In this document: piece after piece, positions 35,518 to 45,293 of the stretch
How positions within the stretch are numbered: position 1 is the stretch's first letter
Layout of the letters: the number at the start of each line of letters is the position of its first letter
Assembly: GCA_017502875.1 (NCBI GenBank)
Contig: JAFVUF010000008.1
Location: 1 to 45,293, forward strand
Direction: 5' to 3'
DNA: 45,293 nt
Origin: Clostridia bacterium
GTDB taxonomy: Bacteria > Bacillota > Clostridia > Oscillospirales > CAG-272
Position numbers and translations under genes: made by a program
The notes under the pieces: model-generated
Seen by the model: the letters and a program-made list of their open reading frames with translations, nothing else
The model's database searches: none
Told to the model about the DNA's origin: nothing

Positions 35518-36756
35518 CTATTCGTTTATTTCAGATAGTTTGACAACAGGAATAATTTCGCTTATACTTAAAAATTCAAAGTGCCTATCATCCCAAGTTA
35601 CGTAATTAGTATACTCCTTGCTACCATAGTATTTTATTCCGTCTATGTGGTTCGAATAGCAACAATCCGCTACGAAAGAAGGAATTAAGTACTCTCTGCG
35701 CATTTTGCTATACTTATCATAGTCTGGAACATATCTACAGAGATCAAGAAATTTATTCGGTTTGGCTGTCTGCATCGACAAATCTAGCATCCTTATATGC
35801 GTTCTTGGTTTTAACTTCACGATTTGAATTCTCGGAGCTTTGCTGTGTTTTTTAATTTCAGCCATCGCACCTTTTTTCTTATCGGAAAAGTAGTATCTAC
35901 TCTGTCCTTCAAAATTAAATCTTCCTTGGCTTGTTACCCCATAAGGCGCTTGACGCAGCTCGTTTTCAGTATAAGGACAAACTCCGTCTCCCAACGCCCT
36001 TCCGTGATAATAACAAGTATGATCAAAATCAATCTCATCGCTCCAAGTAGAGATTATTTCATTAATTCTTTTACCAACATCGTGGGTGCCTGCCATCGAA
36101 GGACATTCCGATATGTAGCTTTGGAATCTTACTAATTCGTCCTCGTTCAATTCACCCAAAAGGTCTATACCAGAACAAATTATATTTGTTTCCGGTATTG
36201 TAGCAATTTGATCGGGTTCGGCAGTTACATAAAATTCTTTTTTGTCCGCATTAAAGGTGAGCCTGTTCGATTTTGAAATTCTCAAGATTGTCCTCACGTG
36301 TACCCCCTTAATTGCAGCAGACAGACCTTTGGGATACATAGAACTAATTATCTGTGTGTGTTCAAAGGCTTTAAGAACCGCGAGATCGGGAGCACATATT
36401 TTTGAAAGCGTTATTGAAGAAATATAATCGGAAAATGCATAGGGATTGCGTGTATATAATGATTTTTGCAATCTAGATAAAGCGGGAGTTTCGTACGCAC
36501 TTGCAATTGCAGCAACAGCGCTCCACTTGGCAGCAACAGCCTCCATAATTAACGGATCTTTTGCTATAAGCGAATTCGTGGCTGATAACAATCTGATATT
36601 TTCATCTATAACGCTAGTGATCGCCAAATTAGCCATACGTGACTCATTTATCAAAGCAAACGTTGATCGATGAAAATCTGTGAGAATTTTGCTCTGCCCA
36701 GAGATTTGATTTAATGCACGCATAGCTCTATTAAGATCGTCAAACGGATTTTTCAT
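35518..36756 (-). CDS. RES-domain protein
   Basis: 412 residues. The C-terminal 160 or so form a RES domain, the fold of NAD-degrading toxins: YYHGRALGDG (R253), LRQAPYGVTSQGRFNFEG (269-284), RYYFSDKKKGAMAE with the conserved E300, and a late GIKYYGS...NYVTW region. The first ~240 residues are helical and not a known antitoxin. RES toxins usually pair with a Xre/MbcA antitoxin; none is next to it, so this longer form may be self-contained or triggered by infection. AAGGA precedes ATG 36756. It stands alone at the left end of the island with its own promoter. Confidence 0.8.
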   Translation of the reverse strand: MKNPFDDLNRAMRALNQISGQSKILTDFHRSTFALINESRMANLAITSVIDENIRLLSATNSLIAKDPLIMEAVAAKWSAVAAIASAYETPALSRLQKSLYTRNPYAFSDYISSITLSKICAPDLAVLKAFEHTQIISSMYPKGLSAAIKGVHVRTILRISKSNRLTFNADKKEFYVTAEPDQIATIPETNIICSGIDLLGELNEDELVRFQSYISECPSMAGTHDVGKRINEIISTWSDEIDFDHTCYYHGRALGDGVCPYTENELRQAPYGVTSQGRFNFEGQSRYYFSDKKKGAMAEIKKHSKAPRIQIVKLKPRTHIRMLDLSMQTAKPNKFLDLCRYVPDYDKYSKMRREYLIPSFVADCCYSNHIDGIKYYGSKEYTNYVTWDDRHFEFLSISEIIPVVKLSEINE

Positions 36757-36962: not shown

Positions 36963-36981
36963 TTTAGTGAGAGGTGATGAT

Positions 36982-37593
36982 ATGGACAAACCATCGAACC
37001 TGACGGTTATCAAGAATAGAATTAAGAAAGCACAGCCCGGCACAGTTTATGTTGCTGTTGACTTTGTGAATATTTCTGATAAAACAAATATAAACGCCTA
37101 TTTAGCCGTTCTTGCAGAACAAGGAGTCTTGCATCGCGTTCTCCGTGGCGTATATTATAAACCGAACTACAACGAGCTCTTGCAAGAATACGTTGCACCC
37201 GATATAGATAAGGTGGCTCGAGCAATTGCTCGAAATTATGGTTGGACTATCGTCCCTTCGGGAGATACTGCTTTGAATATGCTTGGACTTTCCACGCAAG
37301 TACCGGCAGTATATGTCTATGCAAGTGACGGAGCATACAAGAAATATGAAGTGAACAATACCACGATTCAGTTCAAGAGAACAACAAACCGCGATTTGGC
37401 AAAGCTAACCTATAAAACCGCGTTGGTAGTACAAGCCCTAAAAGCTCTCGGCAAGGATTATATCGATAACAAAGTTATTGCACAACTGCAGCGCGTCTTA
37501 ACAGCAGAAGAAAAAAGTAAAATGTTGACCGAAGCTAAAACTGTAACCGCGTGGATTTACGATTGCATAAAGCAGATATGCATTGAGTGTTAG
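36982..37593 (+). CDS. DUF6088 (AbiEi antitoxin-like) protein
   Basis: 203 residues. An N-terminal winged-helix part (VIKNRIKKAQPGTVYVAVDFVNIS...LAEQGVLHRVLRGVYYKP) is followed by the DUF6088 body with IARNYGWTIVPSGDTALNMLGLSTQVPA and KRTTNRDL. This is the architecture of AbiEi-type antitoxins of type IV toxin-antitoxin systems, which also repress their own promoter. The usual nucleotidyltransferase toxin partner AbiEii is not here; a DUF4238 gene follows after 13 bases instead. ATG 36982 is chosen because GAGGTGAT lies before it. It heads a run of four plus-strand genes that ends with two nuclease genes and may be their regulator. Confidence 0.82.
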   Translation: MDKPSNLTVIKNRIKKAQPGTVYVAVDFVNISDKTNINAYLAVLAEQGVLHRVLRGVYYKPNYNELLQEYVAPDIDKVARAIARNYGWTIVPSGDTALNMLGLSTQVPAVYVYASDGAYKKYEVNNTTIQFKRTTNRDLAKLTYKTALVVQALKALGKDYIDNKVIAQLQRVLTAEEKSKMLTEAKTVTAWIYDCIKQICIEC

Positions 37594-37606
37594 GAGCGTG
37601 AATTTC

Positions 37607-38620
37607 ATGCCGAAGAAGAAAAAAGAACATTATGTTCCCCAATGTTATTTGGAGAAGTGGTGTATTCCTGGCAGCCTTCAAGTGAATGTTTTTGATAAAG
37701 AAAAAGATGAAACTCGTACTAATCACATAGAAGATGTTGCCTCTGAAAACTATTTTTACGACTTAAATTTAGAGGGCGTTTTCTCTGCAGAAGAAATAAA
37801 GTTTTATGATTTAGAGGGCGTGGATCTTTCAAAAATTGATGACGAACAATACATAGAGAATTTCTTCGCCAATAACATTGAAGGAATATTTAAGAAGGCA
37901 TTAGAACAAATCATTTTTCGTGTGCGCGAGATGAATACTTGGGAACTTAAAAATTGTTTCTTTATAAAGCCAGAACAAGTATTTTCGTTCTCAGTCCTTT
38001 TAGCACTTCAATACATTCGCGTTAAAAGTGTTCGAAATTCCATTGAAGAGTTTGCAGATTTACTTGATCAAGCTTTGAGAGATAAAAATGCCTCTCAAGA
38101 ATTGATTAATAAGTATACAAAAACATCTAAAAATCAACTAAAATACATACACGGAAAAATGATTTTTGATAATGAAGCAATTTTGCATTTTGCACATGCT
38201 TTTTCAGATCATATATGGATTCTGCTGAAGAACAAAACAACGCAACCGTTTTTCACCTCTGATAACCCCATTGGTACAGCCGAGCATATTCATAATCCAT
38301 ATATGGCTATGTCAGGCATATCTTCAATGGGCGTGGAAGTATATTTTCCCCTATCCCCAGACTTAATGTTGGTAATGTTCGAAAAAACATATCACAAAAA
38401 TGTGAGGCAAAATAATTGCCGCATCGTGGAAATAGATGATCTTGAGATAATTGATGACTATAATTCTCGCTGTGTAATGAACAGCAGTCGTTGTGTTTTT
38501 TCTCAAACAGGTGATTTTTCTATTATAGAAAAGATGAAGGCAAAAAGACCTGATGTGTTACAGTTACCAAAATCCACGCTAACGTGGAGTGGAAAAACCT
38601 ACCTGCCAAAGAAAAAATAA
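37607..38620 (+). CDS. DUF4238 protein
   Basis: 337 residues, beginning with the family signature HYVPQCYLEKW after a lysine-rich start. Further family words are FTSDNPIG near residue 220 and a C-terminal part on surface-loop residues. DUF4238 proteins are widespread in accessory regions and have no settled function; a nuclease-like or effector role has been suggested only by context. The start is ATG 37607, with TAGGAG before it; the in-frame GTG at 37583 overlaps the upstream gene. It sits between the DUF6088 protein and the restriction genes (47 bases to the next start), so it could be the toxin-like partner of DUF6088 or an accessory of the restriction system. Confidence 0.8.
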   Translation: MPKKKKEHYVPQCYLEKWCIPGSLQVNVFDKEKDETRTNHIEDVASENYFYDLNLEGVFSAEEIKFYDLEGVDLSKIDDEQYIENFFANNIEGIFKKALEQIIFRVREMNTWELKNCFFIKPEQVFSFSVLLALQYIRVKSVRNSIEEFADLLDQALRDKNASQELINKYTKTSKNQLKYIHGKMIFDNEAILHFAHAFSDHIWILLKNKTTQPFFTSDNPIGTAEHIHNPYMAMSGISSMGVEVYFPLSPDLMLVMFEKTYHKNVRQNNCRIVEIDDLEIIDDYNSRCVMNSSRCVFSQTGDFSIIEKMKAKRPDVLQLPKSTLTWSGKTYLPKKK

Positions 38621-38667: not shown

Positions 38668-40053
38668 ATGGACAATTTATGGTTACTTACCGAGGAACGC
38701 CCTAAACTTTCTGTTGTGTTAAGAATTTTAGACGAATACAACAACGATTTTGGTGCTACCGTAACGGTTAATGAGAATTTCAATATTAGACCTATCATCA
38801 AAAACGGCAAATTCACATTTGAATATTTAGTAGAAGGTGTATCCGTTCAAGGAATTGCAAATGTTTTTATTGAGATAGTCAGCGGCAATTCAAGTTTTGT
38901 TGACTATATGCTTATTCGACAGGAAGCAAAGCCGACAGATCATTCTTTAGATAATGTTCTTATGGCTATTGAAGAAACAAAAACAAGTGATGCCGAATCG
39001 AGAAACACCGGTATATATCAGCGTGCATCGAAATTTGTATACATAGACAACTATTGCCCTCAGGCAAAGAAATATATGTTATACAACGAAGAAATGACTC
39101 CCGACGAAGATAGAACGCCTACGGATACAAACAGATTCGGAACAAATATGCTTCTTACTTTGGGAGTGAAATTTATAGGAAAAACCATGCGAGGTTTTAG
39201 AGCTTTTGCTAATGTCGACGAAATGGTTGCTCAAAAATCAAGCATGCGTCTGCCTAATCATACGAACGTTCCAATTCTGCTCCATAAATACGCAGATAGA
39301 ATTACAGTTTCGGGTCGATTGGCAAAGCCCAAAGATGCCGGAAATATTGGACACGACCCTAATATTGGTGCTCTTTCTTGCATTGGATACACTCTTCGCA
39401 AGCTCGGTTGGGATAAAGACATTATTGTAACACACCACGGAGTTTCCCAATCCTATGTGGACAGAACGAGAGGAAGGAACAAGTGTTTGTTCCTCTTCAG
39501 TATGAATCACATGAAGTTGGACGGCATAACTATGCCTCCCATCGTTCCTATGCCTGAATTCTATTGGAATTACTCATGTTCATCTGAAAAGGTTGCATCA
39601 ATCTTTTTGCATCTTACCTGTCAATATTCAGGAATTCACGGAATTTACGAAAATCATGCTGGTTGTGAGCGCGGATATTTCAGAACTCGTACAGGGGCTT
39701 TTTTGGCGTTGCCCAAAAAGGACAGATATGGCGAAAATCTTTTGCTTCCCGATGTCGTTTTATGTGACGACACAATCCGTGAAATTTACAATGTTGAGGG
39801 AAAGAAACTCTCAACTCTTTATGATGGTGTGGCAGAAGTCGACACCTATGATTCCATAGAGAATGAGTTTATCAAACCGCATTATCCCGGCTATTCCATT
39901 CAACGCTGGGTATCAATCTTTGGTGGAAATTTAAAAGGAGTTCCTCACGAAAAGGTTTTGGTTTATCTGAATGAAGATGGAGAGGTTTATATAAATAATG
40001 CCGCTCCTTCCAACATAAAAAGCGCCTTTAAGGTAATAGGAGTACATTGCTAA
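38668..40053 (+). CDS. PD-(D/E)XK restriction endonuclease-like protein, large subunit
   Basis: 461 residues. The C-terminal half holds a PD-(D/E)XK active site: E328 in YENHAGCE, P361-D362 in LLLPDVVLCDD, and E377-G-K379 in YNVEGKK. The middle has GHDPNIGALSCIGYTLRKLGW and ITHHGVSQ-like words (here VTHHGVSQ) seen in uncharacterised Type II endonucleases. The N-terminal ~200 residues are probably the DNA-recognition part. It overlaps the small nuclease gene by TAATG at 40051-40055, and two methylase genes converge on the pair. I infer that it is the specificity and one-strand-cutting subunit. AAGGAG precedes the ATG. The enzyme family and site cannot be named by eye. Confidence 0.75.
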   Translation: MDNLWLLTEERPKLSVVLRILDEYNNDFGATVTVNENFNIRPIIKNGKFTFEYLVEGVSVQGIANVFIEIVSGNSSFVDYMLIRQEAKPTDHSLDNVLMAIEETKTSDAESRNTGIYQRASKFVYIDNYCPQAKKYMLYNEEMTPDEDRTPTDTNRFGTNMLLTLGVKFIGKTMRGFRAFANVDEMVAQKSSMRLPNHTNVPILLHKYADRITVSGRLAKPKDAGNIGHDPNIGALSCIGYTLRKLGWDKDIIVTHHGVSQSYVDRTRGRNKCLFLFSMNHMKLDGITMPPIVPMPEFYWNYSCSSEKVASIFLHLTCQYSGIHGIYENHAGCERGYFRTRTGAFLALPKKDRYGENLLLPDVVLCDDTIREIYNVEGKKLSTLYDGVAEVDTYDSIENEFIKPHYPGYSIQRWVSIFGGNLKGVPHEKVLVYLNEDGEVYINNAAPSNIKSAFKVIGVHC

Positions 40054-40616
40054 TGAACAATACTATGATTTTATATAACTCATATCAGATACCACAGCAT
40101 TTAATTGATGAAGCATATGAGTATGCTGTATTATCGAGAAGGTATACATCAAATAGACATGATTTTCATGCTGGTGGACTTGACAACAAACAGAAAAAAA
40201 TGTTTGAAGGAAAGTTGGGTGAAAAAGGCTTTAAAATGTTTTTGCTGGATAATTCTATAGAATTTATAGAAGACCATTCCTCTTATGAAGAACGTGATGA
40301 ATACGATTTTTTAGTATCAGTAGACGGATATGATGTTAAAATTGATGTAAAAACTCGAACCGAAGCATTTCATGTTCGAACACTGGAGATGGTTGAGCAA
40401 GCGCAGTCACACCCTAAAGACATATATGTTTCAGCACGCTTGTTTCGAGATACTAATACCGTAAAATTATTAGGATGGTTTTCATATGACGATATGATGC
40501 GTGTTAATCGTATAGAAAATCAAGGCTATTTGGACAATTACGTTATGTTTGATTCCGAACTTAGACCTATGTCTCAGTTATACGATACATACTTAATAAA
40601 ATGCAAAAAGCAGTAG
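40053..40616 (+). CDS. Small PD-(D/E)XK nuclease subunit
   Basis: 188 residues with a compact nuclease fold. D85 lies in DEYDFLVSVDG, then D98-V-K100 in VKIDVKTRTE, the D-x12-D-x-K pattern of PD-(D/E)XK enzymes, with an acidic residue-rich helix upstream. It is about the size of the catalytic small subunit of heterodimeric Type IIS enzymes such as BspD6I (186 residues by memory). It starts inside the stop of the large subunit gene (TAATG), so the two are made together in about equal amounts. Its TAG stop lies in the stem of the terminator it shares with the methylase genes. Cleavage of the second strand is the inferred job. Confidence 0.75.
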   Translation: MNNTMILYNSYQIPQHLIDEAYEYAVLSRRYTSNRHDFHAGGLDNKQKKMFEGKLGEKGFKMFLLDNSIEFIEDHSSYEERDEYDFLVSVDGYDVKIDVKTRTEAFHVRTLEMVEQAQSHPKDIYVSARLFRDTNTVKLLGWFSYDDMMRVNRIENQGYLDNYVMFDSELRPMSQLYDTYLIKCKKQ

Positions 40617-40632
40617 TAATCTACTGCTTTTG
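40606..40632. terminator. Bidirectional terminator between nuclease and methylase genes
   Basis: Ten-to-eleven-bp stem AAAGCAGTAG (40607-40616) / CTACTGCTTT (40621-40630) with loop TAAT and A/T runs on both sides. The TAG stops of both convergent genes fall in the stem. Confidence 0.85.
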
Positions 40633-41589
40633 CTTTTTGAATATAAGAATATATTGATGTATTTGATTTGCTACGAAATCGAATGGATAGCCATATGGAA
40701 ATAGTTTTACGGACTGGTCAGCCCATATTTTCATTCCTCTGTAATAGAGATTCGGAATTTCATTCAAGGTATCTACGATTTGAGCATGTAGTAAATTGGT
40801 CTCTTTCTTTTTAGGTTGCATATCTTTACAGAACACAACCAAATAACCTTTGGTTTTTAAATAAGGTAAAGATTTTTCAATAATGCTTTTTAGGCGAGGA
40901 ACAAATTCCTTACTATCGATATTTCCTAAATCAACATCACAGTCAGTAAACGGGGTAGCGGATTTACCATACACAAGTATGTCCGCTCCCGTTTTTTCTT
41001 TTGACATCATGTTGGCGTAAGGTGGATCGATCAGGATCATTCCGACTTGTTCGCCTCCAAGCAAACGGTGCATCATGTCATGGTCTGACAAAACGACATT
41101 GCTATCTCCACATACACAGGGTTGAACTGGCAAGCCAAGATTTTCAGCAGCCAATTTGTATGTATCAATATAAGATTGATTCAGATCTATTCCCAAAGCT
41201 CTTCTTCCACAGAGAGAAGCTCCCAAAAGCGAGCCACCTACGCCCATGAAATAATCAAAGACAATCTCATTCTCTTTTGTAAAAAACTCTATCAGATCAC
41301 GCATTAATTGAGGGGGCTTGGGTGTTGGGTGCACCTTTCTGATGTGGTGAGCGTAACTATCTTCACCACGCGTAGAATATCGAGTATTAATAACCGAACA
41401 AATCTGTCTTGTCCATTCCGAACCCGGTAAATCGTTTATTTTGTTAGTAAGACAAAATCTTCTTCCGTCGGATATTTCAATGCTAATATTACTTCCTTCA
41501 ACAAAAACAGCGTTTTCAATATCTGCTTTTACCCAACTTGGGAGTGCCGATATTTCCTCTGCTGATAAAACATCTTTAACTTTTATCAT
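40621..41589 (-). CDS. DNA methyltransferase (N4/N6-type)
   Basis: 322 residues. The S-adenosylmethionine site DYFMGVGGSLLGA (motif I) comes before the catalytic LIDPPYANM (motif IV). A motif X-like PTPKPPQLMRDLIEFF stands ahead, so the order is X-I-IV, with amino-methylation of adenine or cytosine N4 expected. It follows the fused methylase after 18 bases and is probably the third methylase activity of the same restriction-modification system, needed if the site cannot be covered by two adenine marks, or else a separate protection enzyme. GGTGGA precedes the ATG. Base and site are not predictable. Confidence 0.85.
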   Translation of the reverse strand: MIKVKDVLSAEEISALPSWVKADIENAVFVEGSNISIEISDGRRFCLTNKINDLPGSEWTRQICSVINTRYSTRGEDSYAHHIRKVHPTPKPPQLMRDLIEFFTKENEIVFDYFMGVGGSLLGASLCGRRALGIDLNQSYIDTYKLAAENLGLPVQPCVCGDSNVVLSDHDMMHRLLGGEQVGMILIDPPYANMMSKEKTGADILVYGKSATPFTDCDVDLGNIDSKEFVPRLKSIIEKSLPYLKTKGYLVVFCKDMQPKKKETNLLHAQIVDTLNEIPNLYYRGMKIWADQSVKLFPYGYPFDFVANQIHQYILIFKKQKQ

Positions 41590-41607
41590 ATAGCAGTTCC
41601 ACCCAAA

Positions 41608-43563
41608 TTAGTAATTTGTTATCAACACTTCGATGGTTTCGGCGGTTTTATCCTTCAACTGGTAACTGCAATTTGAGTAATTACTGCTTATATAATGAAT
41701 CTTATATTTTTTCGCCCACTCTTGAAGTATCTTATTTTCTACACCCTTGTGCTTGGTAACATTGGAAAGTGCGAACTTAATTCCTTGTGCATTTGCCTGA
41801 TCCAAGTAATCATACAGGGCTCTTTCTTCTTCTTCGCCCCAATCGTGGAATCCGCGATTGCCGTCATTATATGAACCTGTTGTGATTAGATATGGCGGAT
41901 CACAGTAGATAAAATCATTGCTTCCTAATCCGACAAGACTTATTTCTCTGAAATCTCTTGTGTAGAACTCAATATTTTTCTTCTTCATTGCTTCCATAAA
42001 CAACAAAAGGTTCTTTTTTGTTGTTTCGGAGAATTGGCTTCGGTTTCTTCCGAATGGATTATTGTATTCCATCTGATTATTAAATCTAAACTGATAATTA
42101 AACGAGAAACATGACAAGGTAAATAAGTCTACAGGATTACCTGTTTGATTATAGTAATCTCTAAATGCCTTGTAGCCGACTTCGTTTTCTTTGGACAATC
42201 CAAACTCTTTTATTTTATCATCGATTCTCTTTAAAACTGTAGCAACATCGGCAAAGCAGAAGAAGCGAACCATTTCCACAATGCGATTGTTCAAATCATT
42301 ACAAATTGTTCGGTTAGCAGTTACATTGACGGCAACATTAAAACCACCTGCGAACAAGTCGATAAAAGTATCTATGTTTTCAGGAAACAATTGCATTAAT
42401 TGAGGTAACAGTTTGTACTTTCCACCAATATAATTCATGGGGCTTTTGATAAATGTTTTTTTATCAAATCCCGGGATTGCCATTGCCTCTTGAATTGCAG
42501 TATATACAGGCGTTTCAAAAGTTTGCACAGGTTTGTTAATCAGCTTTTTTGTATAGAATATATATTCAAAATGTTCGGGTTTACCGTCTTGTGGTAACTT
42601 CGATTTATATCTGCTATAAGGAATTTTGTATAGCTTAACACTATCTTCGATACAATGCTTCTTAAGTATTTCAAGTATTTCTTCTGCCGTTAACAATCCA
42701 TCGTCGCTATAGCTGATGACAATGTGCTTAAAATCGGCATCTGAAATCAAAGATTCAAATGCTGACGTAACGGATTTTTTAATGCAATAATCAGATTTTT
42801 CGTTGTTGTAAGGACGAACGCCTGTAACACCCTTAAGTGTAGGAGAATCATATCTTGCGATAGTTTCCAACAGGTGATAGTTAGGCAAATATTGTCTTTC
42901 GTTGTATGGAGGATCAATATATAGAATATCTCCGCTTATTTTCTTTATCAGCTCGTTTGCATCCTCGTTGTAACAGATGTTTCTTTGATTGTTATCAACT
43001 ACACTTAACTTAATTAGTTCAAATCTCTTGAAAGCACGCTTATCCCATGACTTCAAAAAAGCGCCGTATGTTCCCGTAATGTTGGATACATAAGGAATGC
43101 CCTCTATTAAAGCAGCAATGAGATACTTGTATTCATACGCATCTATTAGGTTGTTCTTTTTCCACTCTTCAATAGTGGTTCTTATGAAGTCAATTCGTTG
43201 AGCACTGTCTATTGTCAAGTACATTCTGCCTGCACTACCTGCCGGAGAATATTCCTGCGTAGCAAATCCACTAACATTTGATACATCTGTTGTTTCTAAA
43301 TAAGCAAACGGATCATTGATTCCTATCTGCTTCAATTTATCAAAAGACGGTATAGAATTGTTCTCAATAGTTGCTGCGGTAAGAATATGAGAAAAGTAAA
43401 GCAGATCATTACTTATGATACGATAATATGGTTTAAAGAATCTTGATACCGAACCTGTGCCGGAAAATATATCACAAAAGATTTGGCTACCGTCATTGCA
43501 GTTCTCGTCAATGACCTCTTTTATTATCTCTAACAAATTGGTCTTATTTCCAATGAATCTCAT
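41608..43563 (-). CDS. Fused double DNA adenine methylase (M.FokI-like layout)
   Basis: 651 residues made of two D12-class adenine methylases. The N-terminal domain has MRFIGNKTNLL, the SAM site DIFSGTGSVSRFF and catalytic DPPYNERQY (about residue 220). The C-terminal one has SPMNYIGGKYKLLPQL (about 370), DLFAGGFNVAV and catalytic CDPPYLIT (about 555). Two fused adenine methylases are the arrangement of M.FokI, where each half methylates one strand of an asymmetric site. The start is ATG 43563 with AGGAGGAG before it; the seven upstream codons of the open frame lie before that site. First gene of a two-gene methylase operon with a near-consensus promoter. Confidence 0.9.
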   Translation of the reverse strand: MRFIGNKTNLLEIIKEVIDENCNDGSQIFCDIFSGTGSVSRFFKPYYRIISNDLLYFSHILTAATIENNSIPSFDKLKQIGINDPFAYLETTDVSNVSGFATQEYSPAGSAGRMYLTIDSAQRIDFIRTTIEEWKKNNLIDAYEYKYLIAALIEGIPYVSNITGTYGAFLKSWDKRAFKRFELIKLSVVDNNQRNICYNEDANELIKKISGDILYIDPPYNERQYLPNYHLLETIARYDSPTLKGVTGVRPYNNEKSDYCIKKSVTSAFESLISDADFKHIVISYSDDGLLTAEEILEILKKHCIEDSVKLYKIPYSRYKSKLPQDGKPEHFEYIFYTKKLINKPVQTFETPVYTAIQEAMAIPGFDKKTFIKSPMNYIGGKYKLLPQLMQLFPENIDTFIDLFAGGFNVAVNVTANRTICNDLNNRIVEMVRFFCFADVATVLKRIDDKIKEFGLSKENEVGYKAFRDYYNQTGNPVDLFTLSCFSFNYQFRFNNQMEYNNPFGRNRSQFSETTKKNLLLFMEAMKKKNIEFYTRDFREISLVGLGSNDFIYCDPPYLITTGSYNDGNRGFHDWGEEEERALYDYLDQANAQGIKFALSNVTKHKGVENKILQEWAKKYKIHYISSNYSNCSYQLKDKTAETIEVLITNY

Positions 43564-43636: not shown

Positions 43637-43678
43637 GATGTTGAGGGAATATTGTTTGCTTTATTTTGCGGAAATATC

Positions 43679-43707
43679 TGGACTTTTCCCCTCTTCTGTG
43701 GTATGTT
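43679..43707 (+). promoter_or_regulatory. Promoter of the PARG gene
   Basis: -35 TGGACT (43679-43684), 17-base spacer ending TCTTCTGTGG, -10 TATGTT (43702-43707). The same sequence type recurs at 44617-44645. Confidence 0.6.
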
Positions 43708-43737
43708 GTGTGTTACCCAAAAGAAAGGAGTATTAAA

Positions 43738-44583
43738 ATGATCGACAGAAGAACAAAAAATGCGGAGATATTCCGCGACACGGAACGGCGGTACACGACC
43801 GATCAGGCGTTGGTACAAGCTGTTCGAGAATCAACCAAATCGCAGGTATTCATTTCGGAAAAATCAACCGTAAATGTGCCTGTGCCGAGCAAAACCGAAA
43901 AGGCGAAGGTAATCGTTAGCGGAAAGCGTTCACTCGAAGCAGCCGAGAGCTATGCAAAGCAAGGGAAGAAGGTGTGCGTGCTTAACTTCGCCTCTGCCAC
44001 CAACCCCGGCGGTGGCGTTGTAAACGGTTCATCGGCACAAGAGGAATGTATCTGCAGATGCACTACGTTCTACCCATGCCTAAACACCAATCACATGTGG
44101 AATGTGTTTTACAATCCCCATCGCAAGGCGGCAAATCCGCTGTACAATAACGATTGCATCTACACGCCCGATGTGTGCGTATTCAAGAGTGATACGAATT
44201 TTCCCGAACCTCTCCCGAAAGAAGATTGGTGGAGCGTGAACATTCTGACCTGTGCGGCACCGAACCTTCGCGAACGCCCAAGCAACATGATGAATCCGCA
44301 CGCAGGAAACACGGCGGTAAAGATTACACCGTCGGAACTTGAAAAGCTATTAACCGCGAGAATCCACAGAATATTTGAAGTCGCGGTTACCAACGGAAAC
44401 GAGGTATTAATCCTCGGAGCATTCGGGTGCGGAGCTTTCAGAAATCCGTCCGAAATCGTAGCGAGAGTGTTCAACAATGTGATGCAAGACTACCTCTGCC
44501 ACTTCGATACCGTTGAGTATGCGGTATATCACACCGAGCGTGAGGTGGCAAATTACGAAGCGTTCCTCAAGGAGATGTCGTAA
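43738..44583 (+). CDS. Bacterial-type poly(ADP-ribose) glycohydrolase (TIGR02452 family)
   Basis: 281 residues with a macrodomain-like PARG fold. The signature NPGGGVVNGSSAQEE (the GGG-x7-QEE catalytic loop, with the two glutamates near residues 102-103) is complete, and LGAFGCGAFRNP gives the ADP-ribose-phosphate loop. It removes ADP-ribose from modified targets in the cytoplasm. The start is ATG 43738 with AAAGGAG before it; 24 upstream codons of the open frame are not used. In this island it could reverse ADP-ribosylation by a phage or host enzyme, or act on products of NAD-cleaving systems; no ADP-ribosyltransferase is visible in the window. Confidence 0.88.
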   Translation: MIDRRTKNAEIFRDTERRYTTDQALVQAVRESTKSQVFISEKSTVNVPVPSKTEKAKVIVSGKRSLEAAESYAKQGKKVCVLNFASATNPGGGVVNGSSAQEECICRCTTFYPCLNTNHMWNVFYNPHRKAANPLYNNDCIYTPDVCVFKSDTNFPEPLPKEDWWSVNILTCAAPNLRERPSNMMNPHAGNTAVKITPSELEKLLTARIHRIFEVAVTNGNEVLILGAFGCGAFRNPSEIVARVFNNVMQDYLCHFDTVEYAVYHTEREVANYEAFLKEMS

Positions 44584-44986: not shown

Positions 44987-45293
44987 TTATATTTTCCACC
45001 TATCCTCGTGAATACCAATTTGTATTTTTGCAACAAGTGTGTCATCACTTAGCGCTTCGCGTTTTCGGCGTTCTTCTGTGTTAACGCATAACGAAAGACA
45101 AATAATTGCTTCTCGAACCACTTTGAAAAGTTCAAGAGTTTTTTCGTTCAATTCGCTTTCATCAAGATATAATGCAGATGGATGGCTTTGAAAAGGATTG
45201 TTGGCATTATAATTCAACGCTACTATTGTGTACTTGTGCTCCAAAAAGTTCCTTATCTCTCTAAGTCTTTTCAATTCTGGGTTGGAATCTTCT
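44987..45293 (-). CDS. HEPN-like protein, C-terminal part (cut by window edge)
   Basis: The frame runs from the right edge to TAA at 44987 (about 101 residues visible), so the start lies outside. KRLREIRNFLEHKYT carries the R-x4-6-H core of a HEPN RNase-like domain, and ALYLDESELNEKTLELFKVVREAIICLSL resembles the LA2681-like HEPN family. HEPN proteins in defence islands often cut RNA; here the missing N-terminal part is needed to judge. An internal TTG at 45274 is not a likely start because the frame continues open upstream. Confidence 0.6.
   Translation of the reverse strand, partial: EDSNPELKRLREIRNFLEHKYTIVALNYNANNPFQSHPSALYLDESELNEKTLELFKVVREAIICLSLCVNTEERRKREALSDDTLVAKIQIGIHEDRWKI

Follow-up and report, generated by a model that had tools for sequence, protein, structure and literature searches.

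The window analysed here is a 45,293-nt stretch of DNA from a Clostridia bacterium (Oscillospirales; CAG-272; GCA_017502875.1, contig JAFVUF010000008.1, positions 1-45,293, forward strand), in which two convergent operons make up a restriction-modification (R-M) system (Table 1). One operon carries RL, a large restriction endonuclease, and RS, a small putative nuclease; facing them are the DNA methyltransferase M3 and the fused double methyltransferase M12, whose first and second halves we call Ma and Mb. An earlier note, made from the sequence alone, had described a Type IIS-like restriction system at these positions, and its coordinates for all four genes were borne out. The ATG start codon of RS shares its first base with the end of the RL stop codon TAA (overlap TAATG). 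Where the note proposed a shared terminator, folding predicts a strong hairpin whose flanks are U-rich on both strands, a putative terminator.

Table 1. Coordinates of the genes and the hairpin of the restriction-modification locus.
Feature	Position	Strand	Evidence
RL, 461-aa Type II restriction endonuclease, two PD-(D/E)XK motifs	38668..40053	+	PADLOC PDLC03445; motifs in 87 aligned relatives
RS, 187-aa small PD-(D/E)XK-type putative nuclease (E52, E57, D85, D98-V-K100)	40053..40616	+	invariant residues, 14 relatives
Terminator-like hairpin between convergent operons	40598..40642	either	fold z -6.0 (+), -5.5 (-)
M3, 322-aa N6/N4 DNA methyltransferase, DPPY motif	40621..41589	-	PF01555 1.5e-23; PADLOC PDLC03391 2.5e-123
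M12, 651-aa fused double D12 adenine methyltransferase (Ma, Mb; DPPY in each)	41608..43563	-	PDLC03287, TIGR00571, PF02086

The large nuclease, which the note had not recognised, falls in a widespread family of Type II restriction enzymes. The PADLOC Type II restriction enzyme (REase_II) model PDLC03445 matched RL at 2.6e-63 and likewise matched 87 of 87 aligned relatives; no Pfam family matched the window's RL at E <= 1. A scan of GTDB species genomes found 131 relatives; the 80 best matches were retained and the remaining 51 dropped. Further relatives came from small plasmids of Psychrobacter and Bartonella, from viral contigs and from four Streptococcus prophage records. Within a sample of the genus Prevotella, RL occurred in 1 of 60 genomes, the sole carrier being one already known, and a search of E. 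coli genomes in 'near' mode gave no match to the locus. Three of the 80 loci from genomes are absent from the alignment of 87 RL sequences: L048 has a split frame, and L013 and L037 were treated as duplicates of L012 and L036. Weak Pfam matches among the 87 (BsuBI_PstI_RE in 9, best E 0.013; SCVP in 25, best E 0.00053) were judged chance or too weak, and among solved structures neither RL nor RS had a credible relative by sequence, the single RL match having an E of 2.

Conservation across this alignment revealed two sets of catalytic motifs in RL. Nine residues are invariant in all 87 sequences (D79, E103, T104, K105, Q118, P361, D362, E377 and G378), with R119 kept in 86 and K379 in 84; by sequence motif they form an N-terminal set, D79/E103-T-K105 with E103-X14-Q118R119, and a second one, P361-D362-X14-E377-G-K379. 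The note had assigned RL a single site, E328/D362/E377-G-K379. That site is real and its residues are present, D362, E377 and G378 without exception, but E328 occurs in only 76 of 87 relatives, being replaced both in RS-bearing ones (L017, L025, L110 and the second RL of L009) and in ones without RS, and the N-terminal motif (D79, E103-T-K105, Q118; 87 of 87) had been missed.

Type IIT enzymes are characterised by a pair of distinct catalytic sites, which may share a single chain or be divided between two subunits; BtsCI is a single-chain example in the portion of the source available (PMC4081073). The two conserved PD-(D/E)XK motif sets of RL would place it in this class. In the part of its description at hand, BtsCI, which recognises GGATG, has the catalytic sites SD-X6-E-X14-QR and PD-Xn-EXK (PMC6097692, which cites its sequence as GenBank GQ449683). 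Compared by motif description, RL resembles BtsCI and BseGI, the single-chain Type IIT enzymes of GGATG(2/0), in having E-X14-QR and PD-Xn-EXK. Since RL has two conserved motif sets in the layout of single-chain Type IIT enzymes, it should cut both strands alone. The BtsCI gene itself was sought in plasmids through a published primer, with chance matches only. Tandem RL paralogues were found at L002:4263-7401 and L009:691-3531, each copy keeping both active-site motif sets; they are possible two-chain forms of the enzyme.

RS is 187 residues long, not 188 as first counted. Its D85 and D98-V-K100 are present as claimed, with D85, D98 and K100 invariant in 14 relatives, and 51 residues in all are invariant among the 14 aligned RS sequences. 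Its family matches were weak and sub-threshold, leaving RS with no clear family, and kinship with one of the RL domains was rejected after a profile comparison gave it a probability of 0.4%.

The note had read RL and RS as a split heterodimer of the BspD6I or BbvCI kind, in which RL would bind the site and cut one strand and RS would cut the other. The overlap of the two genes, and the position of RS beside RL in all five genomes that have RS, would suit such an enzyme, and large and small subunits have precedents in BtsI, BsrDI and BspD6I (PMC4081073 and, for BtsI, also PMC2909958, each in the part available). Those systems resemble the window in their large and small nuclease genes, their methylases and their asymmetric sites; their small subunit, however, is needed for the second strand, whereas RS is missing from most RL relatives and RL has both motif sets. 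Whole-genome searches placed RS in 4 of the 80 RL genomes, always adjoining RL, and found none in the other 76; the genomes were searched as two sets, the second of which gave no match and included no positive control, though its query was the one that had matched in the first. The 76 include the sister of the window's genome (locus L010), which has an RL 93% and an M3 97% identical to those of the window and no RS at the locus or elsewhere in its genome, and three plasmid systems with RL also showed no RS. Both active-site sets of RL are retained whether or not RS is present. With two motif sets in RL and no RS found in 76 of 80 genomes, RS is apparently not needed to complete the enzyme in this family, and gene content argues against a small subunit required for the second strand. 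We therefore consider the split heterodimer very unlikely, and the natural nicking subunits foreseen by the note are not expected on this genomic argument, given that RL itself would carry two sites and RS is dispensable. Because RL keeps both active-site sets regardless of RS, and RS is patchy and in the genomes searched lies beside RL, RS is, as judged by sequence, an accessory tied to RL and not its missing half.

The methylases were largely as the note had them. M12 is indeed a fused double adenine methylase: PADLOC model PDLC03287 (646 positions) matched it end to end at 7.5e-264, TIGR00571 matched at 5.1e-45, and each half matched the D12 family (PF02086). M.FokI is laid out in the same way, as a fused double adenine methylase, and the 646 positions of the model are close to what we take to be its length. 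The second methyltransferase was also confirmed, M3 being an N6_N4 methylase (PF01555). The FokI-like fused methylases make the asymmetric site that the note proposed probable, and FokI R-M shares with the window both the fused double D12 methylase and the predicted site. The endonucleases differ: RL showed no FokI-like family match (Pfam at E <= 1, and the weak matches of the 87 relatives), and FokI cuts as a dimer in the part of the source available (PMC6097692), whereas RL has a two-site layout.

To compare methylase content, 92 places with RL were tabulated, 72 of them complete; eight duplicate or truncated fetches were skipped, and the near-identical pairs L012/L013, L036/L037 and L047/L061 are still counted. 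The 72 complete loci comprise 42 with Ma and Mb, 12 with Ma and M3, 12 with all three, 4 with Ma and no close Mb or M3, and 2 with Mb and no Ma. M3 thus takes the place of Mb, the second D12 methylase, in some relatives, and the window has both alternatives; in six relatives (L060, L063, L070, L072, L076 and L081) Ma and M3 are fused. From this alternation and these fusions, the most likely role of M3 is at the site that Ma modifies, on its second strand. Two methylases, separate or fused, also belong to the Type IIT scheme, and the fused Ma and Mb provide them, presumably one for each strand. Four methylase families were searched in the window's own genome (95.7% complete): D12 and N6_N4 yielded M12 and M3 and nothing else, and N6_Mtase and C5 gave no match.

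Comparison with described systems points to GGATG/CATCC as the site. Pin17FI of Prevotella intermedia 17F is described, in the part of the source available, with m6A at GGATG/CATCC, an R gene of 1401 nt (466 aa) and an M1 gene of 1068 nt that share 8 nt (PMC5608340). These values are exactly those of RL and Ma in the relatives L084 and L089, a match of gene lengths rather than of sequence. Unlike the window, Pin17FI has two separate methylases, and that part lists neither a third methylase nor a small nuclease. In Mycoplasma hominis, MhoVII (GATG/CATC) pairs a YhdJ-type with a D12 methylase, comparable to the Ma and M3 relatives, while its related systems carry an AlwI-type nuclease, with no RL or RS in the available part of the description (PMC12898733). 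The description of BtsCI likewise mentions, as far as it is available, no small nuclease (PMC6097692), unlike the window with its RS.

We then asked how far genomes avoid this site, ranking 512 5-mer pairs against a Markov expectation. In a 343-kb sample of the window's genome, GGATG/CATCC ranked second lowest of 512, with 162 occurrences against 333 expected (observed/expected ratio, O/E, 0.49). The comparison covered 12 of 81 RL genomes and 11 genomes without RL (G770, with 3 kb only, was dropped). GGATG was among the five most avoided pairs in 9 of the 12 and in 1 of the 11 (Fisher two-sided p 0.0028, at a rank-5 cut-off set after the ranks were known). In pooled loci GGATG ranked 1 of 512 for 38 loci with Ma and Mb (O/E 0.47), 3 for 12 loci with Ma and M3 (0.72) and 4 for 7 three-methylase loci (0.71). 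These pools, which contain the R-M genes themselves and stand without a pooled control lacking RL, comprise 38 of the 42 complete Ma and Mb loci, 11 of the 12 complete Ma and M3 loci plus the truncated L079, and 7 of the 12 complete three-methylase loci.

Several observations weigh against this assignment. Among the 12 RL genomes, three avoid GGATG little or not at all: G674 (O/E 1.09), the sister genome with a 93%-identical RL, G689 (1.01) and G679 (0.89, 30 kb only). Conversely, G118 avoids GGATG (0.36) though no relative of RL or M12 was found there, and a Mann-Whitney test over the same genomes puts GGATG only at rank 19 of 512 (p 0.017). The window's genome also avoids GTSAC, GGCC and several palindromes for which no matching methylase was found; avoidance is therefore no proof of a present system and can reflect a past one. 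A Campylobacter coli homologue of the FokI methylase was predicted to act on GGATG, a motif absent from the methylation data in the part of the report available (PMC4687069), and methylase likeness alone thus does not fix the site. Finally, the SD-X6-E element of BtsCI has no exact match at residues 94-103 of RL: D95-X6-E102 lacks the Ser, it is E103 that precedes X14-QR, and the invariant Asp is D79. Weighing these points, we consider it probable that the locus encodes a Type II R-M system of the GGATG/CATCC type, with a single-chain, two-site RL, a partly redundant M3 and RS as an optional accessory. Beside these data stands an observation on L025 and L110: on the RL tree the two proteins sit together on a long branch (1.83 changes per site), whereas the RS and methylases of these loci remain close to those of the window. 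This branch, together with the lack of GGATG avoidance in G689 (L025), suggests that the specificity of these RL proteins may be altered.

GTCAC/GTGAC (GTSAC) is in fact the most avoided 5-mer pair in the 343-kb sample (49 found, 308 expected, O/E 0.16), which raises the alternative of two nested R-M systems, one made up of RL, Ma and Mb with GGATG as its site, the other of RS and M3 with a different site that might be GTSAC. M3 is the sole methylase besides M12 in the four family searches, and the RS and M3 genes adjoin, as such a pair would have it. The two genes nevertheless do not travel together: RS occurs without M3 in L017 and L111, a search of the complete sequences of genomes G681 and G680 found no M3 relative either, and M3 occurs without RS in 19 of 24 complete M3 loci. 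Nor does GTSAC follow M3, since it is unavoided in the M3-bearing genomes G678, G689, G676, G683 and G679 (O/E 1.00-1.04) and G674 (0.95), and avoided in G706 (0.41) and G709 (0.05), yet the best M3 matches there are only 29-38% identical. The six Ma-M3 fusions and the avoidance of other sites without a known methylase likewise speak against nested systems, to which we give scarcely any credence.

RS adjoins RL in 12 of the 92 tabulated places, and among 398 genomes of the phylum it was found only in the window's own. The two genes occur as RL followed by RS, RS followed by RL, divergent, convergent, or with RS between Ma and RL, their ends overlapping or very close; RS also stands beside RL in the prophage Javan105. 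The RL tree needs 8 changes in RS, at least 5 of them (gains or losses) on branches well supported by a quick method. Relatives of RS also lie on viral contigs, at least 12 in number (L092-L103, several being near-duplicates; a fragment on L104), without RL on the stretches examined, and on L092 one neighbour is a YqaJ recombinase (Pfam). On the RS tree the phage and RL-linked forms are not clearly separated, one split appearing in 25% of bootstrap trees.

RS could accordingly be a hitchhiker, a phage nuclease gene that shares mobile islands with RL and has no joint function with it. Its relatives on phage contigs without RL, one of them beside the recombinase gene, and its patchiness on the RL tree would fit; against this, RS in the searched genomes was found only beside RL, in several gene orders and with ends overlapping or very close, and we regard mere hitchhiking as rather unlikely. 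A tentative proposal, possible though short of probable, is that RS is a phage-type nuclease captured several times as a dispensable third catalytic partner of GGATG enzymes and would process ends or nicks made by RL, blocking phage repair. Such action on RL products we infer.

Around the locus, over ~32-44 kb, the GC content is 34-41%, against mostly 40-50% to the left of that stretch, and other defence-like genes lie within it; on these two grounds the stretch looks like an acquired island. At 36967-38620, a gene for an AbiEi-like (DUF6088) antitoxin is followed, in an overlapping frame, by a DUF4238 protein in place of the AbiEii toxin, possibly a toxin-antitoxin pair of unusual make-up; a blastn comparison with the sister stretch L010 (17 kb) matched neither gene. 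At 35518-36756 lies a protein with a RES domain (PF08808, residues 272-401) and a long extension at its N terminus, for which no Xre partner was noticed, no search aimed at one having been made. Directly adjoining the methylase genes is a Microbial PARG-type protein (43666-44583; PF10021, TIGR02452), and a fragment of an LA2681-like HEPN protein (PF18733) lies at the window end (44987-45274).

Taken together, the proposed GGATG system would work as follows. The fused Ma and Mb would methylate adenine, one on each strand of GGATG/CATCC, and M3 would add a further methylase, redundant in part, for one of the strands. RL would recognise the unmethylated site and cleave both strands, its single chain carrying two distinct catalytic sites in the BtsCI-like Type IIT layout, and RS, of a type also carried by phages and joined to RL several times, would most likely act on DNA nicked or cut by RL, making damage to foreign DNA harder to repair. 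What the analysis shows is which genes are present, which motifs they have and how well these are conserved, that RS adjoins RL, that most relatives lack RS, and that the site is avoided; specificity, cleavage, strand assignment, the action of RS and any interaction between RL and RS are inferred. At its core the system belongs to a known type; the recurrent RS partner makes it unusual. Among the openly licensed papers listed, none described, by title and opening of the abstract, an accessory-nuclease or three-methylase arrangement of this sort. The BstF5I system, with several methylases, is a possible precedent; none of the papers listed for it dealt with its methylases.

For the family, which is widespread in bacteria and archaea and whose plasmid and prophage members carry hypothetical-protein annotation, these findings have three consequences. 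The exchange of M3 for a D12 methylase indicates that second-strand methylases are exchangeable. The two-site layout of RL corrects the heterodimer reading and would offer targets for nickases, which are made from Type IIT enzymes by inactivating one site (PMC4081073, in the part available). The recurrent RS, finally, provides a case in which the recruitment of phage-type nucleases by restriction systems can be put to the test.

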